A DNA stretch of 33,236 bases from a virus. Of this stretch, positions 898 through 14,187 are shown piece by piece. A program made the position numbers and the translations under genes. Each line of letters opens with the position of its first letter. Position 1 is the first letter of the stretch. Location of the stretch: positions 1 to 33,236 of IMG/VR virus record IMGVR_UViG_3300022905_000555; one strand, 5' to 3'. Under the pieces are notes generated by a model. It was not told where the DNA came from and did not search any database. It saw nothing but the letters and a program-made list of their open reading frames with translations.

Positions 898-1354
898 TTT
901 CGATACCGTATTCTTCTGCAAGTTCTTTGAGTTCTTTTTTTGTAGATATTCTAGCAAGTAATTCAACCTCGTCATTCTTTAAGTGGGGATAAACTTGTTC
1001 TAATAATTTTGTAGCAGATGCAGTACTGCCTTCTCTCTTCTTAAAACCAATCCATTGATGAAATTCGTTTTTTCCTGTATTACCACTCATACACAAAAGC
1101 TGCCATAATAGTTTCGGATGACCTTTGTCTTTACTTACTCCGATGTCATTAAAGTTCCTATTATAATATTCGTTAGTTTTAAAAATGGCAAGTTCTTGTG
1201 CTTCTCTACTTCCGCTAACAGAACTTACATATCTGTTCAACAACCAAAAGCTAATTTGCTTCTTGTGGTCATCTTCTAAGTGATCCCAAATCTTACTTTC
1301 GCCATTGTCGATCCAACTGAGGATTTCTTTTATTGCAATTTTTTCTGATGCCAT
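884..1354 (-). CDS. Conserved phage protein, possibly gp62-like clamp-loader small subunit
   Basis: 156 aa. The layout resembles the small clamp-loader subunit (gp62) of marine T4-like phages: a short helical N-terminus, an NR-x-SS element near residue 40 (LLNRYVSSV), a middle LLWQLL helix, a basic FHQWIGFKK segment near residue 100, and a C-terminal helix rich in K, E and L (ISTKKELKELAEE). In T4, gp62 works with gp44 to load the gp45 clamp. This match is pattern-level only. The usual partners 44, 45 and 43 are not in the window, and the neighbours are kdsB and a zinc-finger protein, so the assignment is tentative. The ATG at 1354 overlaps the kdsB end by 25 nt. It may equally be an unrelated small helical protein. 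Confidence 0.4.
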   Translation of the reverse strand: MASEKIAIKEILSWIDNGESKIWDHLEDDHKKQISFWLLNRYVSSVSGSREAQELAIFKTNEYYNRNFNDIGVSKDKGHPKLLWQLLCMSGNTGKNEFHQWIGFKKREGSTASATKLLEQVYPHLKNDEVELLARISTKKELKELAEEYGIENVKL

Positions 1355-2010
1355 GCGTCAACGTCCTCGGGTGAATTAATCTCTATACCATTAAAGTATA
1401 CACTATTACAGCCAATTTGCCAACCGTTTTTTAGCCAGCGCAACTGTTCAAGTTTTTCAATACGTTCTTCTGCTTCTACAAGTAAATGGGGATATGCTTG
1501 CAATGCTTGTTTGCGATAACCATAAACACCCAAGTGCCATTCGCCATATCCTGTCATGCCTCTGCCAAACCATAGAGCTTGATCACCTGCACGTACCATC
1601 TTAACACTGTTAGGATCGTTTTGCATTTTACTTGGCATTGTTGTGTACACTGTACTTACTTCATATTGAGATAGACTAGCAATACACGTTTCAATTAATT
1701 CAGCTGTAACATCAGGCATGTCACCTTGTACGTTTATAAACTGATCGTAGTCGTCAAGTGTACGCATTGCTACTGCGCCCGCGCATCGTTCTGTGCCGTT
1801 AGCGTAATCTGTTAGATCAATAATAACTTGATGTGGTTCAAACTTATCAGCAATACGTGTATCGTCTGTGAGTACATAAACATCATATCCTGTTTTGCGA
1901 CAGCGTTCGTACACTCTGCGTATCATAGGAATGTTATCCAGTGCTGCTAACGGCTTCCCTGGAAAGCGGGTGCTACCATAACGTGCAGGAATTAGTATTG
2001 CTGTATTCAT
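1330..2010 (-). CDS. kdsB: CMP-Kdo synthetase (3-deoxy-manno-octulosonate cytidylyltransferase)
   Basis: 226 aa, slightly shorter than bacterial KdsB (about 245-250). The N-terminal signature IPARYGSTRFPGKPLA (residues 7-22) is the classic nucleotide-binding motif of the KdsB family. YVLTDD and the NGTERCAGAV segment (residues about 71-80) also match, as does the FINVQGDMPDV acidic motif near residue 95 that binds metal and CTP. KdsB converts CTP and Kdo to CMP-Kdo, the activated sugar for lipid A inner core and for the Kdo linker of capsules. The start overlaps the kdsA stop by 4 nt (ATGA), so the two are translated together. The gene carries the catalytic motifs and looks intact. Bacterial origin by transfer is likely (inference). 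Confidence 0.9.
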   Translation of the reverse strand: MNTAILIPARYGSTRFPGKPLAALDNIPMIRRVYERCRKTGYDVYVLTDDTRIADKFEPHQVIIDLTDYANGTERCAGAVAMRTLDDYDQFINVQGDMPDVTAELIETCIASLSQYEVSTVYTTMPSKMQNDPNSVKMVRAGDQALWFGRGMTGYGEWHLGVYGYRKQALQAYPHLLVEAEERIEKLEQLRWLKNGWQIGCNSVYFNGIEINSPEDVDAWHQKKLQ

Positions 2011-2783
2011 TTTAATACACTGCTGATGGCAACAATATCTTCCACTACACGCTCGAAGTCTTCTAGGCGTAACATATTAGGACCGTCACTGGGTGCATTG
2101 TCAGGATCGGGGTGTACTTCTAAAAAGAAATTCCTAATCCCCAAAGCACTAGCTGCACGAGCCAAGCCAGGAACATAATCCCTATTCCCGCCGCTACTAC
2201 TTCCGTTGCCACCTGGCTTTTGTACTGAGTGCGTGGCGTCCAGTACAATAGGACAATCAAAATTATCAAGCATGTAATTAAGGCCGGTGAAATCAACAAC
2301 CAAAGTATTATATCCAAAGCTAGTTCCTCTCTCTGTAATCCAAACTTCTTTAGCGTCTTCGCACTTACTTAGTATTCCAGCAACGTCCCAAGGTGCAAGA
2401 AACTGTCCTTTTTTAATATTAACAATTTTATCTGTTTCACACGCACGTTGAATCAAATCAGTTTGGCGACAAAGGAACGCAGGAATCTGCAACACATCAA
2501 CTGCGTCTGGGTATGCACCCATTGCATCAATTTGTCCTCTAGTGTGTACATCAGTAAGAATTTTTAAACCAGGGATTTCTTTCTTCATGATTTCAAAATC
2601 TTGCATAGTACGTGCTAATCCAAGACCGCGTTTGCCGTTAATGCTTGTGCGATTTGCTTTGTCGTAACTAGCTTTAAAATAATAATCAATATCGTACTTG
2701 CTACAAACTCTTGCACATGTCTCTGCAATACTAATGCTCTGCTCTAGTGTCTCGTGTTGACACGGTCCTGCTATAATTCTCAT
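2007..2783 (-). CDS. kdsA: Kdo-8-phosphate synthase, metal-dependent type
   Basis: 258 aa TIM-barrel aldolase that condenses phosphoenolpyruvate with arabinose-5-phosphate to Kdo-8-phosphate. Family motifs run in order: IAGPC (residues 4-8), FKASYDKANRTSI, ILTDVH, LQIPAFLCRQTDL, NIKKGQFLAPWD, TERGTSFGYNTLVVD, LDATHSVQKPGG, FFLEVHPDPDNAPSDGPN. Cys8 in GPC, the His of DATHS, the Glu of LEVHP and the Asp of PSDGP correspond to the four metal ligands of the Aquifex-type enzyme; E. coli KdsA has Asn in place of the Cys. So this is a class II, metal-dependent KdsA. The product is expected in the host cytoplasm, fed by host arabinose-5-phosphate and the host Kdo-8-P phosphatase, since neither kdsD nor kdsC is visible here. 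It overlaps kdsB by 4 nt. Confidence 0.94.
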   Translation of the reverse strand: MRIIAGPCQHETLEQSISIAETCARVCSKYDIDYYFKASYDKANRTSINGKRGLGLARTMQDFEIMKKEIPGLKILTDVHTRGQIDAMGAYPDAVDVLQIPAFLCRQTDLIQRACETDKIVNIKKGQFLAPWDVAGILSKCEDAKEVWITERGTSFGYNTLVVDFTGLNYMLDNFDCPIVLDATHSVQKPGGNGSSSGGNRDYVPGLARAASALGIRNFFLEVHPDPDNAPSDGPNMLRLEDFERVVEDIVAISSVLK

Positions 2784-3127
2784 TTGTCGTCCTTTACTAC
2801 GTAATACATTGTTATTAATTGATCTAATAACTTTTCTAATGTAGGATGTTCTTGGGCAAGTCTACATAAATCTTGCCAGTCACTATATGACAATAAATCG
2901 CCTTGTGCTCTAGCTACTCCTGCAGGGTCACCACCTACTATCCAGCGTGGCAATTTGTTATTAGGAGGGTCACGATAACGAGCGTAGACAACACCGTCGC
3001 TACGCTCATATATCAATGCTTCACCTGAGATAAGTGCGCCCAAATTAGCCAACTGCTGTTCCGCTTGTGCGGCGTTTAATGTCACTGTGATTGAACTCTG
3101 CCCAATACAATTCAAATGCAACACCAT
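2780..3127 (-). CDS. Small unknown protein upstream of kdsA
   Basis: Up to 115 aa. I do not recognise it. It contains a GGDPAGVARAQGDLLSYSDW segment and a leucine-rich C-terminal helix (LEKLLDQLITMYYVV). The start is uncertain. The ATG at 3127 would overlap the last 28 codons of the cupin gene (83 nt), which is unusually long. A GTG at 3085 (TVTLNAAQAEQ, giving about 101 aa) or later TTG codons would shorten the overlap. The stop overlaps the kdsA ATG by 4 nt, with AAAGGA just upstream serving as the kdsA ribosome-binding site, so the gene is likely real and translationally coupled. A role linked to the neighbouring sugar genes is only a guess from position. Confidence 0.55.
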   Translation of the reverse strand: MVLHLNCIGQSSITVTLNAAQAEQQLANLGALISGEALIYERSDGVVYARYRDPPNNKLPRWIVGGDPAGVARAQGDLLSYSDWQDLCRLAQEHPTLEKLLDQLITMYYVVKDDK

Positions 3128-3398
3128 CTTCGATGCCTTCGAACTGATGAATCTTGCCTGGCTTAACTTGTGTAAATTCGCCTGGGCCTAAGATAGTTTC
3201 ATCGACTAGTCCTTGATCGTCTTGCCATACACGTATAAGCATCTTACCTGATTCTACAAAGAAGCCATTCCATTTAAATTCGTGTTCATGTTCTGAACAT
3301 TTAAATCCTGCTTTGTATTCGATACGGTGAAATTCTAGTACGCCATTTGCGTGAATTAATTCCGTTGATCCCCAAATTTTGCCTGCTTTAATTGACAT
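3045..3398 (-). CDS. Single-domain cupin protein
   Basis: 117 aa, the size of one cupin barrel. Cupin motif 1 is visible as CSEHEHEFKWNGFFVESG (residues about 34-51), with His37, His39 and Glu41 as likely metal ligands. Motif 2 is PGEFTQVKPGKIHQFEG (residues about 72-88), with His84. Small cupins of this type include sugar-phosphate isomerases and epimerases as well as binding proteins. Beside kdsA and kdsB, a role in sugar metabolism is plausible, for example sugar-phosphate isomerisation that could feed Kdo synthesis, but the sequence alone does not show the substrate. The ATG follows the upstream stop directly (TAAATG). Confidence 0.75.
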   Translation of the reverse strand: MSIKAGKIWGSTELIHANGVLEFHRIEYKAGFKCSEHEHEFKWNGFFVESGKMLIRVWQDDQGLVDETILGPGEFTQVKPGKIHQFEGIEDGVAFELYWAEFNHSDIKRRTSGTAVG

Positions 3399-3905
3399 TT
3401 ACATTAACCTTTCATATTCAATAATTTCACATTGTCTACTAATATCTTTTACAAAAAATGCACATAACGGATTTGTTCCTTCTGTAATCTGAACACTTAG
3501 TAATTGTCCGTTTTTCATTTTAGGAAAATACCATTTTACATCTGTATAGAAGTTTACAATATTAATAGATGCAAAGTCTGTTTTAAAGCTCTTCAACGGA
3601 TTATACAAAAATGCTTCAAACCCTCGATCGTTAATACTTGTTAATGGAAGTATTTCTAAGTCAGTTCCGCTTTCTGAACAGCCTACTGCAATACTCCAAT
3701 CTACTGGCATTGTAATTTCTTGTCCGCCAATATCTAATACCATTGCAGGTGCACTAAATGATTCTAGAAAAATTAATGGTACAAAGAAAAAATCCGGATT
3801 TTTAGGATCGCTATTATCTAGTACACTAAATCGTACATCGTCTTCAATTTGATCAGGCAAATCATCTAAGTTAAAGCATTTATTTTCTAATGTTAAAATT
3901 CTCAT
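3399..3905 (-). CDS. Unknown 168-aa protein next to uvsW
   Basis: 168 aa, unrecognised function. It is acidic at the N-terminus (LDDLPDQIEDDVRF) with a hydrophobic core segment (FFFVPLIFLESFSAPAMVLDIGG) that reads as beta strands rather than a membrane helix, since charged and small residues interrupt it. Only 5 nt separate it from the end of uvsW and nothing separates it from the cupin gene, so it belongs to the same early transcript. From memory, marine T4-like phages often have a conserved protein of this kind by uvsW, but I cannot give it a name. No catalytic motif, signal peptide or coiled coil is evident. Confidence 0.65.
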   Translation of the reverse strand: MRILTLENKCFNLDDLPDQIEDDVRFSVLDNSDPKNPDFFFVPLIFLESFSAPAMVLDIGGQEITMPVDWSIAVGCSESGTDLEILPLTSINDRGFEAFLYNPLKSFKTDFASINIVNFYTDVKWYFPKMKNGQLLSVQITEGTNPLCAFFVKDISRQCEIIEYERLM

Positions 3906-3910
3906 AATTT

Positions 3911-5374
3911 TTAATTCCAGTCTATTTTTTCAATCGTAAATGGGTATTGAGCTTCAGTATAGAATTTCTTACGCTGAGTTAAATGCCGCTTCGCAAACTT
4001 GCACGTCGATGTCAAGTCCCATATTTGTACGAAGTCTTTGTCTTTAGCCTTTCTTACGCCTCTACCAATGCTCTGAATAACACGAACAAAAGACTTGCCA
4101 GGTTCAAGAAGAACAAGATTAAAGATCCTCGGTATATTAAGTCCAACAGCGGCGACTCCGTAGGTTGCGATAATGACCTCATTAGTCCCTTCACGAATCG
4201 TATCATATGTTTCTTTCCTGTCTTTTACTTTAACAGCACCGCTAATAAATGTACTGCCCGGAATCATCTCGGCTAATGCTTGTCCGGCACTAATTCTGTC
4301 TACAAGAATAAGTGTGTTGCCTGTTTGCGATACCTTGTTCATCATCTTGCCAATGTATTCTAAGCGTTCAGTATTAGTTGTTAGGTATTTTAATTCGCTT
4401 TGATAATCAGTATGCACTACTGTATCAATTAGCTGACATACATTAACATGACACTCTGATAGCACGCCTTTGTCTTGTAATTCTTTTGCTGTAATCTGTC
4501 CAATCACTGGACCTAGACTTGCGTGAATACTTTCAAATTCAAACTTCTCTTTGGGCACTGTACCAGTTAGTCCCCAGCGAATTGGAGCATTTCTTAAGTT
4601 TCGTGTAAGCAAATTCTTTAGCACTTCTGCTTTGGCCTGGTGTACTTCGTCGACAATAACTGCGCTCACACCTTCAAGGAACTCTGCAAGTGATAATACT
4701 GCACTTCCGTCCTTGTGTTTCTTGTCAAGAATATTCAAACTCTGCCAAGTACAAATAGTATGAGTCTTACCGAGATTCTTTCTGTCTCCGAAGTACACCC
4801 CAACGTCAAGTCCGCAATTGATGTAGTCTTCTTCAGTTTGTTCAACAAGTGACTTGTTTGGAACAATAACTAGACTACGTCCGTACGGCTCGACCATATG
4901 CGATAATGTTGCTGTAGTAATTGTCTTACCTGCACCAGTAGCAATCTGTTGCAAGCTCTGCGGGTTAGCTAAGAAGTTGTTAATTGCATCAACTTGATAG
5001 TCTCGAAGCATAATGTCTTCGCCTTCAGCAGGATGACCTTTAGGCCATTTAACACCTTGGTCAGCCCAGTAGCTTTCTGTTACTGGTGTAAACTTTAAAG
5101 TAATAGGGTGTCTGTTGTCTTGAATGTCTACTATTTCGACATTATTTTTTCCAAGAATATCACAAACAACATCAAGATGATTGACGTAGCCTGTACCGCC
5201 AATGCCAAAAAAAGCAACTTTACCGTCCCATCGTCCCAGTTTATACTGGGGCATGTGTTTAGCATAAGGCACTTCAAACTTAAGAGCATTGGCGAGCTTT
5301 CTTCGTACATCTACATCTAGTCCTTCTAGTTTGATGTTTACTTCGTCTTCAATTATTAATCTACAACTAGCCAT
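3911..5374 (-). CDS. uvsW: RNA-DNA / DNA-DNA helicase UvsW
   Basis: 487 aa (T4 UvsW is about 500). After an N-terminal region of about 120 residues comes the superfamily 2 helicase core: Q-motif-like MLRDYQVDAI (122-131), Walker A ATGAGKT (145-151), DEVH box (242-245) and GLTGT (268-272, motif III). C-terminal RecA-like motifs follow, including IIATYGVAAVGLNIPR and QSIGRGVRK (motif VI). UvsW unwinds R-loops and branched recombination intermediates and helps switch T4 from origin- to recombination-primed replication. The ATG overlaps the preceding gene by 8 nt. Finding it in an early unit driven by a sigma70-type promoter fits a replication/recombination role, although T4 itself expresses uvsW late. 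Confidence 0.92.
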   Translation of the reverse strand: MASCRLIIEDEVNIKLEGLDVDVRRKLANALKFEVPYAKHMPQYKLGRWDGKVAFFGIGGTGYVNHLDVVCDILGKNNVEIVDIQDNRHPITLKFTPVTESYWADQGVKWPKGHPAEGEDIMLRDYQVDAINNFLANPQSLQQIATGAGKTITTATLSHMVEPYGRSLVIVPNKSLVEQTEEDYINCGLDVGVYFGDRKNLGKTHTICTWQSLNILDKKHKDGSAVLSLAEFLEGVSAVIVDEVHQAKAEVLKNLLTRNLRNAPIRWGLTGTVPKEKFEFESIHASLGPVIGQITAKELQDKGVLSECHVNVCQLIDTVVHTDYQSELKYLTTNTERLEYIGKMMNKVSQTGNTLILVDRISAGQALAEMIPGSTFISGAVKVKDRKETYDTIREGTNEVIIATYGVAAVGLNIPRIFNLVLLEPGKSFVRVIQSIGRGVRKAKDKDFVQIWDLTSTCKFAKRHLTQRKKFYTEAQYPFTIEKIDWN

Positions 5375-6536
5375 AAAATTTTGAATACTTCCTAAATGGG
5401 CTCATGCTCTCTTCTCTATAAACAATTAAGTCGCAATTGAATCCTACATAAGCGTTTACTAGTCTATCTAATCTACTGTTATAAGAGATAGCAGTGTGTG
5501 GTTTCCAGTCACCGTTAACTAAGAGTTTCGGTAATGTATCTGTACTAATATATACTATTTTTGTTGATTTGTCAACCCAATTATTCAATTTCCTATCTTT
5601 TACTAATGTATTAAATCCTACATCACTTCCGTCTAGTCTAAAAAGAACACTTGATGATTCAAACGGCAATATGTCTCTATAATAAGTTACTAATTCGTGT
5701 AGCTGTTCTTCTGCATTAATTTTATCTAAAATTATTAACAACGGAAATCTATCTAAATCCCAAAGAGCAGATAATACCGATTGTGTATCATATTCAATTG
5801 GACTTAACATGAGCTGTGCTGTTTCTCGATAAGCTATCTTGTTTAATAGTGTATCGTCTGGCAAGGTATCAATAGTTTCGATACCATACTTAAATCTTCT
5901 ATCAACATATTTGATTAAGTTTGTTTGATCAAGATCGCCTAATTCGTCTACTATTAATTTGCGAGCAGTTGCATTAACATTCTTAAGTTCTAAGTTATAG
6001 ATACCAGGAATATAATTTTCATGTGAGTTTTTTATTTGTTTAATTTTATTATAAACATCGATTAGTTCTGCATCAATCTCAAAACTTGTATCGACAAATT
6101 CAGTTAAGATTGAAAATACACTTTGTTCTGAATATTCAAATGTATGCTCGTGTGATCCTTTACTGTGCTCATATCCGGTAGCATTAGTTTTAGCTAATTC
6201 TAATTTTATAATATCTTTCTTACTAAACGGAAATCTAATTTTAATAGTATTGTCTATAATTTTAATATATTTGGTTCTGTCAATCTGACGCAATGGGTTC
6301 CGTAGTATATTAACAGCACCAACTACATCATACTCTAACGCAGTAAATTGATCAGCGTATGATAGTAGTTTTTCTTTAACTACTTCGTACTGACGATCAG
6401 TAAGTGCAACTCCTTTATGCACTTGGCGTGCAATACTTCGAAGAATTGTTTGATCGCTAGATTGGATTACAAAAGATACATTCCCTTGTAGTCCAGTCAA
6501 TAATTCAAGATATGATTCTATTGTTTTCTCAGCCAT
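5367..6536 (-). CDS. Unknown 389-aa protein, first gene of the uvsW operon
   Basis: 389 aa; I do not recognise the family. The N-terminal half is helical and charged, with a short His-rich loop (GYEHSKGSHEHTFEY, residues about 119-133). The C-terminal half alternates predicted strands and helices (FPLLIILDKINAEEQ; SSSVLFRLDGSD; TKIVYISTDTLPKLL) in a way that recalls a RecA-like or nucleotide-binding fold, but I see no Walker A or DExx motif. It is the promoter-proximal gene of the early operon and overlaps uvsW by 8 nt, so a role alongside UvsW in replication or recombination is plausible. A sigma70-type promoter places the transcript start at or next to the ATG. Confidence 0.7.
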   Translation of the reverse strand: MAEKTIESYLELLTGLQGNVSFVIQSSDQTILRSIARQVHKGVALTDRQYEVVKEKLLSYADQFTALEYDVVGAVNILRNPLRQIDRTKYIKIIDNTIKIRFPFSKKDIIKLELAKTNATGYEHSKGSHEHTFEYSEQSVFSILTEFVDTSFEIDAELIDVYNKIKQIKNSHENYIPGIYNLELKNVNATARKLIVDELGDLDQTNLIKYVDRRFKYGIETIDTLPDDTLLNKIAYRETAQLMLSPIEYDTQSVLSALWDLDRFPLLIILDKINAEEQLHELVTYYRDILPFESSSVLFRLDGSDVGFNTLVKDRKLNNWVDKSTKIVYISTDTLPKLLVNGDWKPHTAISYNSRLDRLVNAYVGFNCDLIVYREESMSPFRKYSKFYG

Positions 6537-6542
6537 ACAAGT

Positions 6543-6571
6543 AGTATAACGTATTATAGCTTACTTGTCAA
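6543..6571 (-). promoter_or_regulatory. Sigma70-type early promoter for the uvsW-kdsAB operon
   Basis: On the minus strand: TTGACA (6571-6566), 17-nt spacer, TATACT (6548-6543). The -35 lies inside the last codons of the upstream gene, and six bases separate the -10 from the ATG at 6536, so +1 should be at or next to the A of the start codon. Confidence 0.8.
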
Positions 6572-7405
6572 GTTATTTAATGGTAATCCTGCTGCAATTT
6601 CTTCTATAGTGTATTCAGTGTGAGCGTAGTCATTGAGCCATTGTGTTCTATCTGGCATCATTGGAGATTCTATATCGTGCATAAAGTCAATGTCATTACC
6701 GACGTCATACGCTAAAGATGCGGACCCTACAAACGCCGGAACGCCGTTTAGTACACTGTGTATGCCCGGGTTGCTGCTGTAGCTTACAGTAGCGTGTACG
6801 TTGTTAAACGACATATCAAAGTCATCATATGTACCATTTAATTTTACAGGATTTTGCCTGTATACATTTTTAAATTCTTTTTCGATATGTTGTAATGGGC
6901 ATCGAGGATGAGGCCGAAACAATATAGGACGATCAGTATGTGCTCTTATGCCATCTATAGTATTCATCACCCATTGACTCATCCTAGGCATATGTTGCCA
7001 CTGCAAACTTTTATCGTGCTGACCTGCTATTAGTATATACTCGCCGTCTGTACGCCAGGGCTTTAAAACAAGTCCGAGAAGATTAGCACGGTCACTAGTA
7101 TTCCCCATATCCCCAAAATAAGCATCTCTATTAATACCATTTAATCCCACCTTCCAAGTTGTGCCTCGTTTAATTCCACCGACTTCAAGTACTATAACTG
7201 GTTTCTTTTTGTTCTGTGCGTTCTTCCAAACAAGTTGGTTTTGAGCCATTCTTCCGTTAAACAGTACGCTCCAAATAACATCAACGTCGGAGTCATTGCT
7301 ATTATCGTCAGTGCTAAAACCAAGGGCGCGACAACCCTCTCGAAAAGCATCAAAGACAGGTTTGCTATTAAGTGCGCCATATTGTGTCCATAAACTAAAT
7401 TTCAT
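6554..7405 (-). CDS. Capsule-synthesis-like glycosyltransferase, paralogue 1 (RPHP motif)
   Basis: 283 aa from the ATG at 7405, which overlaps the previous gene by 11 nt. The upstream in-frame Met would give an 80-nt overlap. The C-terminal half has DRPILFRPHP (158-167), then SYSSNPGIHSVLNGVPAF (208-225), then a tail with TIEEIAAG. The HP motif followed by an S/N-rich loop and a GVP segment resembles the capsule-synthesis family (KpsS/KpsC type), whose members transfer beta-Kdo to build the capsule linker. The two genes upstream (8237-9169 and 9166-9993) share the same skeleton, so this is one of three tandem paralogues. Acceptor and donor are unknown; kdsA and kdsB in the same phage make CMP-Kdo an attractive donor (inference). 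Confidence 0.55.
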   Translation of the reverse strand: MKFSLWTQYGALNSKPVFDAFREGCRALGFSTDDNSNDSDVDVIWSVLFNGRMAQNQLVWKNAQNKKKPVIVLEVGGIKRGTTWKVGLNGINRDAYFGDMGNTSDRANLLGLVLKPWRTDGEYILIAGQHDKSLQWQHMPRMSQWVMNTIDGIRAHTDRPILFRPHPRCPLQHIEKEFKNVYRQNPVKLNGTYDDFDMSFNNVHATVSYSSNPGIHSVLNGVPAFVGSASLAYDVGNDIDFMHDIESPMMPDRTQWLNDYAHTEYTIEEIAAGLPLNNLTSKL

Positions 7406-8240
7406 TCCAGTATGCTTCTGTTCTATTAACCATAATGTCTTTCTTTTGTGACTTACCTGTATCCTTGCGTCCACCTTTCATATGATCCATCCACTTGCCT
7501 AGTGGACCATTAATAAGAGGATGCCCTCCGCCGCCTGACTTTGCTTCTTTGAGATACATTTCTGCACTGTAATCGTGTGATGGAAATTCGCTATATTTCT
7601 TTAGCAGCTCGCCAAACACATAACTGTCGTGCCATTCTTCTAATGTAAAGATACCGTTCTCAGCATCCTCGTACATACGCTCAAAGTCTTCTAAGAAACT
7701 GTGGCACACAGGATGATTTAGATTCATACCGTAGAAGCCACACTCTGGCCAAGTCTGCGATCCTTTACCTCTACCAACATATGTGATATAAGCATTGTTA
7801 GGAAGTAGTTCTGCAAAGTCTTCGTAATTCCAAGGACTGTGAATAAAGCTGTCTGCATCCATCCACACACACCACCCCTTAGAGCGTGTACAAGCGTCAT
7901 ACACTGCGTATGTTTTATTAGCGAACCTAACTGCATCCCACTTGAATTCTTTGTTCCAATCCTTGCGTGTGTGACGCTGTGGTTCATTGCTAACGTCTCC
8001 GTTAGCTTTAGGCACATCACGCCATTTGTCTTTAAATGCATTTAATTTAGGTAGCACTGCTTTTGCATCTAATATTTCAATACGAATTGGATCAGGATTA
8101 CGAGGAATACAATCTTCTGCATATACTAGCAGCTTAATACGCTTGTCTACTTTTGCAGCAAAGCTGTCTAAAAAACGCTGTCCGTATTTTACTAACCCTG
8201 ACGGATGAAATGTTGTTACTACTGTAATTTGTTTATTCAT
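7395..8240 (-). CDS. GT-A-fold glycosyltransferase (DAD motif)
   Basis: 281 aa from the ATG at 8240, whose first bases overlap the upstream stop (ATGA). It reads as a GT-A nucleotide-sugar transferase: an N-terminal strand ITVVTTFHPSG, then GWCVWMDADSFIHSPW (122-137) with the metal-binding DAD at 128-130, then an acceptor-side segment ECGFYGMNLNHP and EEWHDSYVFGELL. The DAD between hydrophobic residues and the later HDSYV acidic patch are typical of small phage and bacterial transferases that add hexoses to envelope glycans. No signal peptide or membrane helix is present, so it acts in the cytoplasm. Sugar specificity cannot be read from the sequence. Confidence 0.78.
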   Translation of the reverse strand: MNKQITVVTTFHPSGLVKYGQRFLDSFAAKVDKRIKLLVYAEDCIPRNPDPIRIEILDAKAVLPKLNAFKDKWRDVPKANGDVSNEPQRHTRKDWNKEFKWDAVRFANKTYAVYDACTRSKGWCVWMDADSFIHSPWNYEDFAELLPNNAYITYVGRGKGSQTWPECGFYGMNLNHPVCHSFLEDFERMYEDAENGIFTLEEWHDSYVFGELLKKYSEFPSHDYSAEMYLKEAKSGGGGHPLINGPLGKWMDHMKGGRKDTGKSQKKDIMVNRTEAYWNEI

Positions 8241-9169
8241 TTTGTTGCCCACTTCCTTAAATGTGTCCATGCTGTTCCGTCTTTAAGTTCGTCTAATGTC
8301 CAGTGCATCTGCGCCATTTTTTGGACCCAAAGTTCTCTATCAAATTCTTTTATATTTTCTAAATCTTTTAAATCAGAATGGGCAACGGCTGCTGCTTGGC
8401 TCCTGTCAGCGTCTAACACAAATACAGGAACACCCTGTATAGCAGCAGCAACAGCAGGACTGCTATTGTAATTAATGACAGCATGTGCATTTTCAAAATC
8501 TTGTAGTAAGTTTGCACTATGAGTTATAGTTACATTTGTCATTCTGTATCTAGCCAATGCACGTTTATGTTCTAGTATTTTTTTATCGCCTGGATGAAAT
8601 CTAATAACTATGGGTCTATCTGAATACTTTTTAACATGGGTAATAGTTTTAATTAACCAAGGAAGTACTGCTTGCCCGCCCATGCTCCATCCTCCGTCTC
8701 GCTGACAGCAAATTAATATATTTTTTCCGTTGTGTTGCATTGGCTTTAACGAAATACCTAAACGTTGTTGAATTAAATTCCACCGAGCAGGATCAGGAGT
8801 TGCGTTACAGTATTCGCCGGTATTTGGAAAAATACCGTCGTAACTAAATCTTAAAAATTTATTACGATTTTGAGGATCAGCATACAAAAATAAATTACTG
8901 TCTACAATAATGCTACGCTTATTATCTCGTTTTTGTTTTTCAAATACATCTTGTCGTAATTTTAAATGCAAACTGTTTTTACTATTTTCGTGAACAAACC
9001 CCTGCACTACTGCTACATCTGCATTTACAGGAGTATAGTCAGTTACAATAGTTCCTTGATCTCCGGAGCGCCATACACCTTCAATGAAGTTAACAATGAT
9101 TGCTGGTTTTTCAGGATTAGTGTTGCCTGGAGGAATACCCATTAGATACGATGCTACTTTTATAGTCAC
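8237..9169 (-). CDS. Capsule-synthesis-like glycosyltransferase, paralogue 2 (RFHP motif, GTG start)
   Basis: 310 aa if started at the GTG at 9169. I chose this start because GTGA overlaps the upstream TGA by 4 nt and an AGGAG sits 8 nt before it; the upstream ATG at 9196 would overlap by 31 nt. Domain order: N-terminal half with IVDSNLFLYADP and an RFSYDGIFPNTGEYCN segment, ILICCQRDGGWSMGG (151-165), DRPIVIRFHP (184-193), INYNSSPAVAAAIQGVPVFVLD, and a C-terminal WTLDELKDGTAW. The RxHP plus NSSP/GVP pattern matches the neighbouring paralogue and recalls capsule-synthesis (KpsS/KpsC-type) transferases. Of the three paralogues this keeps the fullest set of features. Likely a cytoplasmic transferase acting on envelope glycans. 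Confidence 0.58.
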   Translation of the reverse strand: MTIKVASYLMGIPPGNTNPEKPAIIVNFIEGVWRSGDQGTIVTDYTPVNADVAVVQGFVHENSKNSLHLKLRQDVFEKQKRDNKRSIIVDSNLFLYADPQNRNKFLRFSYDGIFPNTGEYCNATPDPARWNLIQQRLGISLKPMQHNGKNILICCQRDGGWSMGGQAVLPWLIKTITHVKKYSDRPIVIRFHPGDKKILEHKRALARYRMTNVTITHSANLLQDFENAHAVINYNSSPAVAAAIQGVPVFVLDADRSQAAAVAHSDLKDLENIKEFDRELWVQKMAQMHWTLDELKDGTAWTHLRKWATK

Positions 9170-9993
9170 TGAATAGTCTCCTGAAGTGTATTCCATGCAA
9201 ATCCGTTTTCCATTTCTTCTTGGGTAAATTGTGCATACGATAAGTGTTTCATAAATGCAAACATTTCATCTTCTGACGGGACTCTAGGATTTTCAATATT
9301 ATTTAACTCTGTTTCTGCAATTACTTGCGCAGCATTTGGGCCTAAACTTATAGCACATTTCCCTTCAATTAATGCTTCAGTTGCAGCAATGCTATTATAT
9401 GTTACTAAACAATGTACATCATTAGCAAGTGCTTGTTGAATTGTTTGATCAGTTACTCTAGAACTTCTGTTAGGTTTCATTCTAATTTCTATAGGGCGAT
9501 CAGTTAATGTTTTTATTTTTTCTACTAGCTGATTAGTCCAATCTTCAGCAGTGCCTTGATCCCATAAACTCATAACTTTATCACTGGGCGGGCATACTAA
9601 AATCTTACTGCCAGGAGTAAATGGTTTCCAAATATTATTCCAAGAACCCATAATAGTTGTTAGTCTATCATCCGAACGTTCAATTATTGGTCCAGAATTC
9701 TGTAAGGCGTTACGGGTTATTCTATGCCATCTTTTGTGTTTCCAGTTACCAAAATAACCAGTATCGATAGCATAAAATTCTCTATTTGTTTTCCAGCAAT
9801 GCTTGATTGCTTTTTGACTGCCGCCGCCGAGGCCTCTAATAACAAGAGTTGAAGTTGTATCTTTTTCTTTGTCCCAGTTCGAAGCAGCGCCGTCGGCGCC
9901 TTTAATAAAACTTTTTAGATAAGGATCATAGTCGTGCCCTTTGGCATTCCAATTAAATCCGCCTACACTGTCAATTGCAACTACTTTACCCAT
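9166..9993 (-). CDS. Capsule-synthesis-like glycosyltransferase, paralogue 3 (HP replaced by KP)
   Basis: 275 aa from the ATG at 9993, which overlaps the upstream stop (TAATG) and has GAGG just before it. It follows the same skeleton as its two downstream neighbours: DRPIEIRMKP (165-174), LVTYNSIAATEALIEGKCAISLG (196-218), and a tail with TQEEMENGFAWNTL that parallels TLDELKDGTAWTHL in paralogue 2. The conserved His of the HP motif is Lys here. If that His is catalytic, as proposed for capsule Kdo transferases, this copy may be inactive or altered in activity. An N-terminal RGLGGGSQKAIKHC loop is glycine-rich. It could be a partner subunit of the other two. Function is inferred only from the paralogues. 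Confidence 0.5.
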   Translation of the reverse strand: MGKVVAIDSVGGFNWNAKGHDYDPYLKSFIKGADGAASNWDKEKDTTSTLVIRGLGGGSQKAIKHCWKTNREFYAIDTGYFGNWKHKRWHRITRNALQNSGPIIERSDDRLTTIMGSWNNIWKPFTPGSKILVCPPSDKVMSLWDQGTAEDWTNQLVEKIKTLTDRPIEIRMKPNRSSRVTDQTIQQALANDVHCLVTYNSIAATEALIEGKCAISLGPNAAQVIAETELNNIENPRVPSEDEMFAFMKHLSYAQFTQEEMENGFAWNTLQETIQ

Positions 9994-10667
9994 TAGGACC
10001 TCATCATATTCTGTAATTCTATTTTCCATTCTGTATGGTACTCGCAGTTTCTATAATTTTCAAACCATGGGCCGCCTTCTGTATAATGTATTAATTTAGG
10101 AGTTTTGATGTTATCGTATACGCCTACTAAGTAGTTCCAGGTGTGATCTAATGCACCTACTTCTTCGTCCCTAAGCCAACTAAGGCGATGTAGATATGCT
10201 CCGTTAATTTCTGGATCATTAACTAAGTCTTGTGTAAGTCTAGCATTGCTAGGATGACCGCAGTTGATCAACATTACACTTGACCAGTTCTTGCGTGGAT
10301 AAACAGTTTGTTTCTGTCCGTCCATCTTCATGCCTTCTTTAGGAGTGTAATCGTGTTGTACACACATAACTGCATACCTATCGTCTGCTTGTGCAAATAG
10401 TTCTGCAATGTCTGTAGTAATCAACATGTCGCAGTCCATAAACACTGCCCATCCTTTAAAGTTCATTAGTTCAGGTACAAGAAATCGTGTAAAGGTAAAT
10501 TCAGTACTTGCAAGTTTATCAACTGGTCTAGTATACCATCCTGCATCTCTAAGCTCTTGTTGTTTTAACGGATGTACTACTGCATCTTTGCTTCTTGTTT
10601 GGATGCTGTGCTTGCACACTTGATATGCAATATCTTCCCGTGTATCGTATCCTACAAATACTTTCAT
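9993..10667 (-). CDS. GT8-like glycosyltransferase (DCD motif)
   Basis: 224 aa from the ATG at 10667 (TAATG overlap with the fusion gene upstream). The N-terminus MKVFVGYDTREDIAYQV is a typical GT-A start. GWAVFMDCDMLITTDIAELF (72-91) carries the DCD metal and nucleotide-sugar motif at 78-80. SSVMLINCGHPSN and, near the C-terminus, DHTWNYLVG with LIHYTEGGPWFENY give the His-rich metal ligand region of family 8 transferases. The pattern fits a retaining transferase of the GT8 kind using a UDP-sugar, working in the cytoplasm on a lipid-linked or LPS acceptor. It is second in the late sugar operon. Substrate cannot be read from the sequence. Confidence 0.75.
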   Translation of the reverse strand: MKVFVGYDTREDIAYQVCKHSIQTRSKDAVVHPLKQQELRDAGWYTRPVDKLASTEFTFTRFLVPELMNFKGWAVFMDCDMLITTDIAELFAQADDRYAVMCVQHDYTPKEGMKMDGQKQTVYPRKNWSSVMLINCGHPSNARLTQDLVNDPEINGAYLHRLSWLRDEEVGALDHTWNYLVGVYDNIKTPKLIHYTEGGPWFENYRNCEYHTEWKIELQNMMRS

Positions 10668-11443
10668 TAATCTTCTCTCTCTATATCTTCTTCTATACAA
10701 TGCTCTCCGTATTGTATTTCTACTATTCTACAAGGAACATCAAACGGATTAGTCAATTGATGCCATTCGCCTACTGGGATTTCAAATGCTTGATGTACTG
10801 TTAATTCTCTAGGTGGCAAACTGTATCCGTTTGGCATCTTACTGTGTACAATACACGCACCTTCACTAACCATCCAATGTTCTGAACGATAATCGTGTCG
10901 TTGCATGCTTAAACTTTTTCCCGGATCAACAGTAAGTTCTTTTACTTTGCATCCTTCGACTTCATGGAGTACACGATAATATCCCCATTGACGTTCTGTC
11001 TTAGGTGCTTTCCATTCGTCAAGAATCCAACTGCTTGAGTTTTTCTTATGCTCTCCACCAACTCCGAAAGCAAATTCGACATAGGGCATGCTTCCGTATA
11101 CTTTATATTCCGGAGTTGTTGTATTAGTTCTATCACCACCATTTGCAAAAATAACTTTTGTTTCAGTACCGTGTGTACTTAATGTATGAAAGATTGCCTG
11201 ACATGCTGTATTGTCGCTGTCGTCAAAACCTATGACCTTGTCCACACATGCTAATTCTTTAATAATAGCAACACGTTCTTCAAATGGCATAAACGGTCTG
11301 CCTTTTTTACGAGTCAACCAATTATCACTGTTAACTCCGACAATCAATTTAGAGCCAAGTTTTTTTGCTTCTTTAAAGTAGGCGATATGACCACTGTGAA
11401 GTGGGTCAAAGCCTCCTGTAACTAATACTACACGATGTTTCAT
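10667..11443 (-). CDS. Bifunctional nucleotidyltransferase-cupin fusion
   Basis: 258 aa in two parts. Residues 1-145 form a cytidylyltransferase of the TagD/HldE-like superfamily: GGFDPLHSGHI (10-20) with the HxGH motif at 16-19, plus VNSDNWLTRKKGRPFMPFEERVAII. Residues 150-250 form a cupin like the C-terminal domain of ManC/mannose-6-phosphate isomerase type II: WGYYRVLHEVEGCKVKELTVDPG, QRHDYRSEHW (181-190), IPVGEWHQLTNP (222-233). The first half would activate a sugar- or polyol-phosphate with CTP, and the second could isomerise or bind a sugar phosphate. The fusion suggests one dedicated precursor for the transferases downstream. It is first in the late sugar operon, with a late-type promoter 5 nt before its ATG. 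Confidence 0.8.
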   Translation of the reverse strand: MKHRVVLVTGGFDPLHSGHIAYFKEAKKLGSKLIVGVNSDNWLTRKKGRPFMPFEERVAIIKELACVDKVIGFDDSDNTACQAIFHTLSTHGTETKVIFANGGDRTNTTTPEYKVYGSMPYVEFAFGVGGEHKKNSSSWILDEWKAPKTERQWGYYRVLHEVEGCKVKELTVDPGKSLSMQRHDYRSEHWMVSEGACIVHSKMPNGYSLPPRELTVHQAFEIPVGEWHQLTNPFDVPCRIVEIQYGEHCIEEDIERED

Positions 11444-11448
11444 GTAGA

Positions 11449-11456
11449 TATTTATG
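11449..11456 (-). promoter_or_regulatory. Late-type promoter CATAAATA for the sugar operon
   Basis: Minus strand CATAAATA, then 5 nt, then the ATG at 11443. In T4 the octamer covers about -13 to -6, so +1 falls on the A of ATG. No separate ribosome-binding site is seen. Confidence 0.7.
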
Positions 11457-11470
11457 TATGTAGTTAATGC

Positions 11471-11478
11471 GCTAAATA
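11471..11478 (+). promoter_or_regulatory. Late-type promoter GCTAAATA for the sulfotransferase gene
   Basis: Plus strand GCTAAATA, then 5 nt, then the ATG at 11484. It faces away from the CATAAATA promoter at 11449-11456, so both units could be fired together by a late sigma factor. Confidence 0.6.
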
Positions 11479-11483
11479 GATAT

Positions 11484-12146
11484 ATGAGTTATTATATAGA
11501 ATCTAAAACACCAGCAGTTTTTATCCATATACCGAAAACTGCTGGGAGAAGTGTATTGACATTAATTAAAAATAATTACAATTACGAAATTATTCCCAAT
11601 GACAGGACTACTAATTTAAATTTTCATAGTACTTTAAAAGACGCAGAAGATTTTGTCAACGAGAAAGATCCTTATGTTTTTTCTATTGTAAGAAATCCTT
11701 GGTGCCGAACTGCTAGCTGGTTTTTCTTTAGACGAGAAGTTCTTCGACAAGGATTAAAGGCATTATATGCAGGTAAAAAAACTAACAAAGTTCAAGATAA
11801 TTATGATATAGTACTCGAAGAATATAACATTATGATTGATAGTTTTGAAAAGTGGTTAACTCGATATCATAATCATGCATGGGATAATACTTGGTTTAAA
11901 TTATCCGATAGTCAGAGTACATGGCTTAAATCTAAATCAATATCAGTTGATAAGGTTATTAAATTTGAAAACATTAACGAAGAAATAACCAACATTGAAA
12001 TATTTAAAAATATGTCGTTGCCTATAACTAACAAAGGCCCTAGTAACATATCTTATAGAGATATTTTTACAAATAGCTATACTGTTAATTTAATTAAATC
12101 GTTATATGAAGAAGATATAGATAATTTTGGTTATACATTTTCATAA
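11484..12146 (+). CDS. Sulfotransferase-family protein
   Basis: 220 aa. Two PAPS-binding signatures of membrane-type sulfotransferases are present: AVFIHIPKTAGRSV (11-24, the 5'-phosphosulfate loop) and FSIVRNPWCRTASWFF (66-81, the 3'-phosphate region). The C-terminal half is helical and charged with no transmembrane segment. A start at 11454 is possible in frame, but 11484 is preferred because a late-type promoter lies at 11471-11478. The enzyme would move sulfate from PAPS to a hydroxyl of a glycan. The APS-kinase-like gene at the window's left edge could supply PAPS. It is alone on the plus strand among sugar genes, and its last 6 nt overlap the end of the convergent glycosyltransferase gene. 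Confidence 0.78.
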   Translation: MSYYIESKTPAVFIHIPKTAGRSVLTLIKNNYNYEIIPNDRTTNLNFHSTLKDAEDFVNEKDPYVFSIVRNPWCRTASWFFFRREVLRQGLKALYAGKKTNKVQDNYDIVLEEYNIMIDSFEKWLTRYHNHAWDNTWFKLSDSQSTWLKSKSISVDKVIKFENINEEITNIEIFKNMSLPITNKGPSNISYRDIFTNSYTVNLIKSLYEEDIDNFGYTFS

Positions 12147-12914
12147 CCATTTTTTAGATTCCATATAAAATCTATCACTAATCTTTGCTGCGCCTTTGCC
12201 AGTCATTACTAATGCGCTGTCTGACTTCTTTGTATGATCACAAAATATTTTATCAATATGTGTAGTATTATATAATTTACTTTTTTCAACAAACGTATCT
12301 TGATCTAAAAATCCGTATACTTTTTTAGAAGTAAAAGAATTTGTTAAACTATTTCCCCAGTCAGTTAATAACGTATTCTTATTTCTAAATGCAACCAAAC
12401 TGACAACAAATCGATTGCCTTTAACAGACAAGCATCCGCAGTCATTAGTGCCTAACATTTTATTAATATCTATTGTACCTTTGCATATAGTATCCATATC
12501 ATATGCTGCTACTGGATGATTACCTGTCCATAGTTTTGATAATGTTATAAATCTATTACAAGCATATACCGAAAACGTCATTAGATGTTTCATTTTTTCT
12601 ACAAGCGTTTCTTCGTTGCAGAATGACAAACCGTGTTTTAATTTTTGTTTGTGTAGTTCGTCTATATGAGGATTTTCTAAATATTTTATAGATTCTAAAC
12701 ACAAGTCATTAATGTATATTTCGTCAATAAAGTCAGTTGTATAATTACACGGCAATAACTTTAAATCTTCTATATCATTATCATCAGGATTAATGATATG
12801 TACATGAATAGTTTTATCAGGATTGTAATGATTAAAACTTCTTACAAATACCTTGCCGTATTTTTTCCAGTACTTAGAGTCACCACCGGTGAATATAGTA
12901 GGGCTATCGATCAT
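12141..12914 (-). CDS. GT-A-fold glycosyltransferase (DMD motif)
   Basis: 257 aa. An N-terminal nucleotide-binding-like strand set (TIFTGGDSKYWKKYGKVFVRSF; TIHVHIINPDD) is followed by NHPVAAYDMDTICKG (132-146) with a DMD motif at 139-141. GCLSVKGNRFVVSLVAFRNKN and YGFLDQDTFVE follow, resembling the acceptor and second acidic regions of small GT-A transferases. No membrane segment. Its ATG overlaps the stop of the FkbM gene upstream (TAATG), so it closes the gene 32 operon. It ends in a 6-nt convergent overlap with the sulfotransferase gene. The family number and sugar are not readable; its place after two methyltransferases suggests work on the same glycan. Confidence 0.62.
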   Translation of the reverse strand: MIDSPTIFTGGDSKYWKKYGKVFVRSFNHYNPDKTIHVHIINPDDNDIEDLKLLPCNYTTDFIDEIYINDLCLESIKYLENPHIDELHKQKLKHGLSFCNEETLVEKMKHLMTFSVYACNRFITLSKLWTGNHPVAAYDMDTICKGTIDINKMLGTNDCGCLSVKGNRFVVSLVAFRNKNTLLTDWGNSLTNSFTSKKVYGFLDQDTFVEKSKLYNTTHIDKIFCDHTKKSDSALVMTGKGAAKISDRFYMESKKWL

Positions 12915-13552
12915 TACACGCCCTCGAATATATAGTCTTCGTTAATTTGATCTACTAATTTATAATTTAAAGATTTCATTAAGTCGAATACTGTATTAGC
13001 AGAGTAATTAAAGTTTTGCAATGCAGAATTAATTTCTAAACATATAATAGGTTTAAATTTTTTAATAGTCAAAAGTCCGCCGTTAATTGCATTAACTTCA
13101 AAGCCTTCAATATCTAAATGTATTAGGTCGCAACTGTCTAAATTTAAATCATCAATTAGCATTGTAGGTATTTTGCCTTTACCTGATATATAATAAGTTC
13201 CTATGTTTATACCTTTTTTAACATGTGATGCAGGCAATGCTATATCAACTAATTGGTGCGTATTACCTAAACATGATTGCATTTTAATAACATTGCTATC
13301 TTGCACATTTTTAACAAGACAAAAGAAATTTAACGGGTTAGGTTCAAATGTGTATACTGTATCAAAAATGCCTGCATAAATTTTAGTATAATACCCAACG
13401 TTTCCGCCTGCTTGAATACAAGTTTTTTTATTCTTAGCATAACCTGCTATTAGCTTAGGTTGTTCATCCCAATTGGCTTTTTGTTTATTTGCGTTAGTTG
13501 CGCCGATTGTTGGAAAATAAAACCCGTTAACTAAAGTTATATTATTTTCCAT
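12914..13552 (-). CDS. FkbM-family methyltransferase, copy B
   Basis: 212 aa. The SAM-dependent FkbM fold is recognisable from KTCIQAGGNVGYYTKIY (43-59, motif I), VYTFEPNPLNFFCLVKN (67-83), MLIDDLNLDSCDLIHLDIEGFEVNAINGG (about 131-159) and a KPIICLEIN strand. FkbM proteins methylate hydroxyls on sugars and other small or polymeric substrates. Motif I has Gln-Ala-Gly-Gly-Asn where the family usually has Asp-x-Gly-Ala-Asn. It is about half identical by eye to the next gene upstream, so the two are a tandem duplication that has diverged. It is likely to methylate a glycan made by the neighbouring transferases. Confidence 0.82.
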   Translation of the reverse strand: MENNITLVNGFYFPTIGATNANKQKANWDEQPKLIAGYAKNKKTCIQAGGNVGYYTKIYAGIFDTVYTFEPNPLNFFCLVKNVQDSNVIKMQSCLGNTHQLVDIALPASHVKKGINIGTYYISGKGKIPTMLIDDLNLDSCDLIHLDIEGFEVNAINGGLLTIKKFKPIICLEINSALQNFNYSANTVFDLMKSLNYKLVDQINEDYIFEGV

Positions 13553-13554
13553 TA

Positions 13555-14187
13555 TTAACTCTTATATTCAAATATAATGTCATCATCTACTATTCCAGTT
13601 TCAGTATATCCTAACTCGATTACTAACTGTTTAACATCGTTATTGGTATGATTATATTTTTCTGCTAGGCCATTTAATTCTAACGCAATTACAGGCTTGC
13701 AGCGTTTTATAGTTTCAATTGCACCTAGTAATGCAAACTTTTCAAATCCTTCGATATCTAAATGTATTAAATCTACAATCGAAAGATTAAAATTATCAAG
13801 TATTAATGTAGGAATAATTCCAGTACCTTTAACACGATACCCACCGCTGTTGGGCTTTTTATGATGTGTTTCATCATATGACAAATTTACAAAGTTTGTT
13901 TCGTTTCCTAAACATCCTTGAAACTTAATAGTTCTATTACTAGTATTTTTTGTTAGGCAATAAAAATTTATTGGATCGGGTTCAAATGTGTAAACTGTAT
14001 CAAAAATGTCTTCATACTTTTTTACATACATGCCAGCATTGCCGCCGGCTTGTACAACTACTCGCTGTTGTTTAGTATATGCAGATACGTTTGTAGGAAC
14101 ATCTTGTCTTCTAGACAAATATCTCCAGCAAGCAACGTCATGCTTGGGCCACCACCAACCGTCTCTAAGTTCTACTAAATGTTCCAT
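13555..14187 (-). CDS. FkbM-family methyltransferase, copy A
   Basis: 210 aa, same architecture as copy B: RVVVQAGGNAGMYVKKY (43-59), VYTFEPDPINFYCLTKN (67-83), a LILDNFNLSIVDLIHLDIEGFEKFALLGA stretch, and KPVIALELN. The N-terminus differs (GWWWPKHDVACWRYL), which may change substrate choice. The ATG at 14187 follows the GT25 gene by 4 nt with a CGGAATA element before it. FkbM methylation of surface sugars typically caps chain ends or changes recognition; in a phage this could alter receptor binding or mask the infected cell (inference). Copies A and B together suggest two methylation sites or acceptors. Confidence 0.82.
   Translation of the reverse strand: MEHLVELRDGWWWPKHDVACWRYLSRRQDVPTNVSAYTKQQRVVVQAGGNAGMYVKKYEDIFDTVYTFEPDPINFYCLTKNTSNRTIKFQGCLGNETNFVNLSYDETHHKKPNSGGYRVKGTGIIPTLILDNFNLSIVDLIHLDIEGFEKFALLGAIETIKRCKPVIALELNGLAEKYNHTNNDVKQLVIELGYTETGIVDDDIIFEYKS

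Follow-up and report, generated by a model that had tools for sequence, protein, structure and literature searches.

A probable glycan-building gene cassette with an optional kdsA–kdsB module in marine T4-like phages

A transferase cassette is widespread in one clade of T4-like phages, and kdsA and kdsB sit beside it as an optional insert. The carriers, marine T4-like phages that form an uncultivated clade, are represented here by IMG/VR record IMGVR_UViG_3300022905_000555, positions 1–33,236; this whole stretch of 33,236 nucleotides is the window, and the interval of interest is 1330–11443. The position of kdsA and kdsB beside three Kdo-transferase-shaped proteins probably indicates a Kdo-bearing sugar coat on the phages or the infected cell. 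We give about an even chance to the proposal that this is a glycan-building cassette in which phage KdsA and KdsB, together with host KdsD and KdsC, would raise CMP-Kdo for the phage's own transferases.

The presence of kdsA in marine T4-like viruses is already known. One marine T4-like viral genome has Gmd, WcaG, ManC, NeuA, KdsA and WaaG (PMC5332604), and kdsA and kdsB have been reported as auxiliary metabolic genes in viromes (PMC10653327). These reports place kdsA alongside glycan genes, as here; however, they are gene lists, and as far as those lists go they describe neither the coupled kdsAB slot nor the KpsC-like triplet, nor the change in the KdsB metal site (PMC5332604; PMC10653327).

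Gene layout, distribution and loss

On the minus strand, kdsB (1330..2010) and kdsA (2007..2783) overlap by 4 nt at 2007–2010, and both start with ATG and lack internal stops, bearing out the 4-nt overlap noted in a sequence-only reading of the window. kdsA shares a further 4-nt overlap with a gene for a small unknown protein (2780..3127, minus strand), which is kept in kds-less relatives and is thus not tied to Kdo synthesis. A single-domain cupin (3045..3398, minus strand; dN/dS = 0.07) is conserved along with the block. UvsW (3911–5374) and orf389 also lie inside the interval, which is therefore not one glycan operon. The minus strand then encodes three capsule-like proteins, CAP306 (6554..7405), CAP319 (8237..9196) and CAP287 (9166..10029), interspersed with or followed by the 'DAD' glycosyltransferase (7395..8270), a GT8-like glycosyltransferase (9993..10667) and a fusion of an HldE/TagD-like nucleotidyltransferase to a type II mannose-6-phosphate-isomerase cupin (10667..11443). 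CAP306 probably starts at 7405, as in its homologues, rather than at the listed ORF start of 7474, and the GT8 gene probably at 10667 rather than at the listed TTG at 10700. An adjacent tailoring gene on the plus strand encodes a Sulfotransfer_2 family protein (11454..12146); beyond it, on the minus strand, are the 'DMD' protein (12141..12914), two FkbM methyltransferases (12914..13552 and 13555..14187) and a GT25 glycosyltransferase (14192..14887).

Among 20 dereplicated groups, 10 carry both kdsA and kdsB, 3 carry kdsB only, 2 carry remnants and 5 have neither. An independent KdsB scan found kdsA upstream at 69 of 75 loci, with a gap of less than 30 bp at 59. A gene inserted between kdsA and kdsB in 11 loci, suspected to be KdsD, turned out to be URO-D. 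Three to four CAP paralogues were present in all of the large kdsB-bearing records tested (8/8). CAP genes with the same motifs persist in phages without kdsAB, so we rejected a strict dependence of the CAP proteins on these genes.

In one remnant group, KdsA is intact beside an 86-residue KdsB remnant; in the other, a 47-residue scar fuses the start of KdsA to the end of KdsB. Decayed copies in relatives, which the sequence-only reading had named as evidence against a working system, thus occur in a minority; loss of the Kdo module is therefore recurrent, whereas the transferase cassette is retained. Decaying passengers describe these two groups, not most relatives, in which kdsA and kdsB are full-length and under purifying selection (dN/dS = 0.16 for KdsA and 0.21 for KdsB). 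CAP306 has a similar value (0.20).

kdsC and kdsD, noted earlier as missing from the window, were also missing from all 18 related virus records, some of them fragments and the largest 155–237 kb. KdsD and KdsC do occur on contig C54, in the genome that holds locus L082, but this genome is a Neomarinimicrobiota metagenome-assembled genome with a phage contig binned in.

KdsA and a rebuilt KdsB metal site

By score and motifs, phage KdsA is a predicted canonical Kdo-8-phosphate synthase of the metal type (IAGPC). It matches TIGR01362 at equivalog level (325.7 bits; curated cut-off 314) and NF003543 at 338.1 bits (cut-off 242). The motifs KANR(T/S), KKxQF, DATHSVQ and SDGPN are present, and the catalytic and metal residues are nearly invariant across the phage set.

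KdsB is, as judged from its sequence, clearly a CMP-Kdo synthetase homologue, though not an ordinary one. It matches CTP_transf_3 (1.2e-26), its PDB matches are all CMP-Kdo synthetases (13/13), it is homologous over its full length to cellular KdsB (L-CKS, TIGR00466), and the motifs PARxxSxRxxxK, NVQGD, H-x-G-x-Y and LEQLR are all there. Yet it scores below the curated cut-off of TIGR00466 (118 against 155 bits) and below those of PRK05450 (174 against 193–234 bits). In E. coli numbering, the Mg-binding Asp235 is replaced by Asn in 57 of 60 phage-clade sequences, whereas all 22 sampled bacterial homologues keep it. Glu233 is nearly fixed in the phage clade (G233E), E101M is a further change, and the clade lacks a loop roughly 20 residues long. 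D100 and D235 are the Mg-A aspartates, corresponding to D95 and D219 in Aquifex (PMC3149649), and counterparts of the lost ligand are crucial in CMP-Neu5Ac synthetase (PMC2901514). D100 is retained in 60/60 phage sequences, and the other active-site positions checked are also invariant (R10, S13, R15, K19, Q98, R157, H181, E210 and Q211); of these, R10, K19, Q98, D100, H181 and E210 are common to phage and cellular enzymes. The earlier description of intact motifs in both proteins therefore holds for KdsA and fails for KdsB at D235N and the lost loop.

The phage KdsB sequences form a phage-only monophyletic clade whose stem is long, at 1.13 substitutions per site. A search for a D235N KdsB of phage type in bacteria gave 0 of 22 sampled loci, the sole close match (L082) being a phage contig.

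Capsule-like proteins and their neighbours

CAP319, CAP306 and CAP287 are paralogues with no Pfam match. For CAP319, the AlphaFold model has a pLDDT of 93.4 and its top 24 Foldseek matches in the PDB are all Kdo transferases; the top PDB matches of the CAP287 model are likewise Kdo transferases only. KpsC, KrkA and WbbB are the best matches of both models, at moderate TM-scores (0.3–0.55). Profile–profile comparison links the family to bacterial KpsC/KpsS (E = 6.7e-10). No useful match came from searching PDB sequences with profiles of the CAP and DAD families. The models thus place CAP319 and CAP287 in a modified GT-B fold whose nearest structures are the GT99, GT107 and GT140 retaining Kdo transferases, upholding the earlier likening of the three proteins to capsule Kdo transferases; CAP306 is assigned to this fold by homology. 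The sequence-only reading had named the lack of any glycosyltransferase-fold match as refuting, and this is not what was seen.

Like KpsC (GT107) and KpsS, the PF05159 Kdo-linker enzymes of E. coli group 2 capsules, the CAP proteins have a GT-B-like fold and are encoded together with Kdo synthesis, and CAP319 and CAP306 have the RxHP CMP motif and an SS/SN phosphate loop. The (K/R)XHP motif is found in 21/21 CAP319 and 24/24 CAP306 sequences (in the window's CAP306, GQHDKS, RPHP and SSNP are the motifs), whereas it is found in 0/14 CAP287 sequences, which have KP instead; most of the CMP site is retained. The Gln of QXXXD is kept in CAP319 and CAP306, but the Asp nucleophile at Q+4, invariant in the bacterial comparison set, is present in only 1 of 59 CAP sequences. 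The resemblance to GT99/GT107/GT140 thus extends to fold and partial motifs; membership of these families and CMP-Kdo as donor, like the mechanism, are putative. In further contrast to KpsC/KpsS, the CAP proteins are single soluble modules with almost no Pfam signal, and kpsMTED-like export genes were not seen. WbbB (GT99) and KrkA (GT140), retaining beta-Kdo transferases, differ likewise in having the nucleophile, at about 10–16% identity.

Of the neighbouring genes, the nucleotidyltransferase–cupin fusion is confirmed by matches to CTP_transf_like (1.3e-17) and MannoseP_isomer (2.1e-22), and the GT8-like, GT25 and two FkbM genes by their family matches. Several relatives fuse CAP287 to a GT8 domain, linking the CAP transferases with GT8. 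The DAD protein can be called GT2-like weakly, with 8 of 22 homologues matching Glycos_transf_2 (best 3.7e-5), and the supposed DMD transferase has no family match. One kds phage has a GT29 gene (CMP-sialyltransferase family) within its glycan island; as a general partner of the cassette it was rejected because it is rare.

Pelagibacter phage Mosig EXVC030M and the Caulobacter Ccr jumbo phages each encode two homologues of the CAP proteins (E = 1e-46 to 1e-19). As in the cassette, the Mosig glycan island holds a DAD-type transferase (a homologue of DAD) and a sulfotransferase, and the Ccr islands hold FkbM; unlike the cassette, neither Mosig nor the Ccr phages have KdsA or KdsB matches.

Possible product and acceptor

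In the pathway we infer, host KdsD would supply arabinose-5-phosphate, phage KdsA would condense it with PEP to Kdo-8-phosphate, host KdsC would remove the phosphate, and phage KdsB, in whose rebuilt Mg site Glu233 may replace Asp235, would make CMP-Kdo or the CMP derivative of a close ulosonate. At least one of the three KpsC-like transferases would then add Kdo or the ulosonate to a glycan that the nucleotidyltransferase–cupin, GT8 and DAD proteins may partly build, and that the FkbM, GT25 and sulfotransferase genes may vary. A 155-kb relative encodes no protein with three or more predicted membrane spans, and no phage exporter, flippase or polymerase gene was found in it, which suggests an acceptor assembled in the cytoplasm or carried out by host machinery. 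We slightly prefer a virion protein assembled in the cytoplasm over a host-exported envelope glycan. A Kdo-glycan system, as first proposed, is thus plausible, but the transferases do not strictly require phage kdsAB, the known Asp nucleophile is absent from them and the KdsB metal site is rebuilt; the computed evidence fits a glycan on the virion and one on the host surface alike. A more specific version, to which we give a low probability, is a CMP-ulosonate system peculiar to phages: a KdsB whose metal carboxylate has moved (E-x-N for G-x-D) would feed a viral family of KpsC-fold transferases that act without a covalent Asp–Kdo intermediate and attach Kdo or a related acid to phage particles, with the donor module gained or lost according to host supply.

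The same enzymes could instead act mainly on the host surface, adding a Kdo glycan to LPS or capsule precursors that the host exports and so blocking superinfection or the sticking of progeny to debris. This is the usual role suggested for known phage glycan clusters (PMC7824862; PMC5332604, as far as these accounts go), KpsC, KpsS and WbbB are envelope glycan enzymes, and an arms race is compatible with gene turnover at the kds slot; nevertheless, with all transferases soluble, the export genes missing as above and no lipid-carrier initiating enzyme recognised, we regard it as rather unlikely. Less probable still is a phage KdsB changed in function, activating another 2-keto-3-deoxy acid or being catalytically weak, with KdsA feeding a different product: the KdsB substitutions, loop deletion and long-stemmed clade, and the three groups with KdsB but no KdsA, would fit, but KdsA is canonical throughout and in most cases coupled to KdsB, whose remaining checked active-site positions are invariant.

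CMP-Kdo formation in E. coli is regarded as pathway-limiting, which would favour ordinary auxiliary metabolic genes sustaining host Kdo2-lipid A synthesis during infection. Although kdsA and kdsB are listed among marine viral auxiliary metabolic genes (PMC10653327), we consider this very improbable, as it leaves the linkage to the CAP cassette and the altered KdsB unexplained, and Synechococcus phage S-SCSM2R, whose own host is WH7803, has KdsA and KdsB in a glycan cluster although the LPS of two marine Synechococcus strains lacks Kdo (PMC4515613).

If the glycan-building reading is correct, 'LPS genes in viromes' would become a defined recurrent module instead of a list. Viruses would provide examples of transferases that use CMP-sugars yet lack the known nucleophile, and of a CMP-Kdo synthetase whose metal site has changed; both would be testable in vitro. 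The CAP homologues of Caulobacter phages and of a Pelagibacter phage in culture make part of the system accessible at the bench. Marine phages would then carry, for an acidic sugar usual in bacterial LPS and capsules, both a donor and transferases of their own.

Gene order and turnover of the kds slot

The 33-kb IMG/VR virus fragment encodes UvsW, UvsX, gp32, large terminase and a tail-sheath-like protein, from which we infer that its source is a T4-type myovirus. Its nearest cultured relatives are distant: the terminase matches those of PA5oct-type Pseudomonas jumbo phages at 53–54%, and UvsW that of Sinorhizobium phage Phosso at 56%. A 153-kb contig of the same phage clade (L082, PBPT01000082.1) is binned in a Neomarinimicrobiota MAG, possibly a host hint or a mis-binning.

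Dozens of contigs share the order NTcupin (a nucleotidyltransferase–cupin fusion; window 10667–11443, minus strand)-GT8-CAP287-CAP319-DAD (a weakly GT2-like glycosyltransferase; 7395–8270, minus)-CAP306-orf389-UvsW-orf168-cupin-orf115-[kdsA-kdsB]-orf156-ZnF, with GT8 and CAP287 merged in one ORF in several. In a census started from CAP306, 38 loci spanned the kds slot: 16 carried both genes, 6 kdsB only, 2 kdsA with a kdsB remnant, 1 a scar and 13 neither (10, 3, 1, 1 and 5, respectively, after dereplication at 97% UvsW identity). The scar, in L203, is a 47-aa ORF at about 12350–12500 that joins the first residues of KdsA (MKIIAGP) to the last ~40 of KdsB (LEQLRWLK...), direct evidence that the module was deleted there. 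Intact copies are under purifying selection, with median dN/dS of 0.157 for KdsA and 0.207 for KdsB (UvsW, 0.078). Among the 38 loci, decay of the pair, raised as a possible objection by the sequence-only reading, is seen in a minority, as the L203 scar and the kdsB remnants in 2 loci; most kdsAB copies are intact. In a diverged sister clade (L214–L227), the slot, bounded by cupin117 and orf156, is taken up by about 5 kb of other genes.

KdsA and a divergent KdsB

By profile and sequence comparison, the window KdsA (2007–2783, minus) is a canonical metal-type Kdo-8-P synthase, with catalytic motifs nearly invariant across relatives. Viral contigs held at least 373 relatives of KdsA, at the scan's sensitivity, and at least 441 of KdsB; best-80 relative lists are skewed to close relatives. 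In L066–L076, a 70% identical KdsA accompanies a cupin, with no KdsB match found, and adjoins a heme oxygenase, an outer-membrane beta-barrel protein and a PBP-like (phosphate-binding type) protein. A complete uroporphyrinogen decarboxylase gene lies between kdsA and kdsB at L046:3027–4004 and 10 other loci, and an S-adenosylmethionine synthetase gene lies directly upstream of kdsA in the L044 neighbourhood (L246:3913–5001), in a methyltransferase-rich genome.

Motifs of both enzymes had been called intact, which holds for KdsA and only in part for KdsB. The window KdsB (1330–2010, minus) has full-length homology to CMP-Kdo synthetases, yet scores under curated cut-offs. Numbered by alignment to E. 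coli KdsB, residues R10, S13, R15, K19, Q98, D100, R157, H181, E210 and Q211 are kept in 60/60 phage proteins, but 57 have Asn in place of Asp235, 58 have Glu at position 233, 58 have Met in place of E101, and nearly all lack the loop near residues 161–178. A separate viral-contig scan found 'EIN' in 69 of 75 KdsB. Asp235 and the loop segment, though of variable length, are kept in all 22 bacterial KdsB of a GTDB sample. Phage KdsB form a single clade (27 rows, SH-aLRT 99, stem 1.13), outside which fall that of cyanophage S-SCSM2R and the E. coli-like L019 and L029.

In Aquifex KdsB, D95 and D219 ligate Mg-A (PMC3149649); we equate D219 with E. coli D235. D209 and D211 bind the metal of CMP-Neu5Ac synthetase, which is severely impaired when they are replaced by Ala (PMC2901514). 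The E-x-N of the phage enzyme may mimic such a D-x-D, in which case KdsB with its altered metal site may still be functional. Downstream of kdsB, a conserved protein (208–975, minus) weakly matches a C2H2 zinc finger (E 0.006).

The capsule-like proteins

CAP319 (8237–9196), CAP306 (6554–7405) and CAP287 (9166–10029), all on the minus strand, are paralogues whose subfamily HMMs cross-match at 1e-14 to 1e-36. A Pfam search returned no match for these three and one weak Capsule_synth match among 59 CAP proteins. Compared as profiles, the family and a set of bacterial KpsC/KpsS proteins match over the half that binds CMP (probability 96.6, E 6.7e-10). Structural comparison covered AlphaFold models of CAP319 (pLDDT 93.4), whose top PDB matches were 24 consecutive Kdo transferases, from 1e-8, and CAP287 (pLDDT 87.2), with 21 Kdo transferases on top, from 8.5e-6. 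RxHP is present in all CAP319 and CAP306 (CAP287 has KP instead), and both subfamilies keep the Gln of QXXXD. The Asp of this motif, the nucleophile of Kdo transferases (PMC10148158, PMC12887879), occurs in 1/59 CAP proteins in the register of the sequence alignment.

By fold and CMP site, therefore, the CAP proteins look like CMP-ulosonate transferases, and the proposed resemblance to capsule Kdo transferases stands to that extent; membership of GT99, GT107 or GT140, the retaining Kdo transferases, appears to fail on a defining residue. In phages that lack kds, the CAP motifs show little change. Several proteins of the giant algal Tetraselmis virus 1 have the CAP319 fold (BFVD matches, E about 1e-18).

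Pathway context and the possible use of phage Kdo

Beyond the window, too, neither the KdsC nor the KdsD family was found in 18 IMG/VR virus records, possibly fragments. In a 155-kb relative, no ORF reached three predicted membrane spans at a simple hydropathy threshold, whereas the script did detect PsbA and PsbD in a cyanophage; hence the phage appears to be without an exporter, flippase or polymerase of its own. At L246:17763–18371 (minus) and L186:1105–1743, a GT29 (sialyltransferase family) protein is encoded within the glycan island of kds-bearing phages. Overall, the sequence-only reading was largely correct in its observation, and the donor and transferase part of its interpretation is plausible.

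A 2017 paper described a marine T4-like viral genome that carries KdsA and NeuA among its glycan genes and interpreted these as serving surface modification (PMC5332604). AMG lists from surface-water viruses include kdsA/kdsB (PMC10653327), and glycan clusters that combine cupins, HIGH nucleotidyltransferases and paralogous transferases are known from jumbo phages (PMC7824862). As far as these published descriptions extend, three things are new: the clade formed by phage KdsB, the triplet with a Kdo-transferase fold and the slot-wise pattern of gain and loss. S-SCSM2R, which infects Synechococcus WH7803, likewise carries KdsA and KdsB inside a glycan cluster, and the LPS of Synechococcus WH8102 and CC9311 contains no Kdo (PMC4515613). 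As an analogy and no more, this speaks against phage Kdo being meant simply for host LPS.
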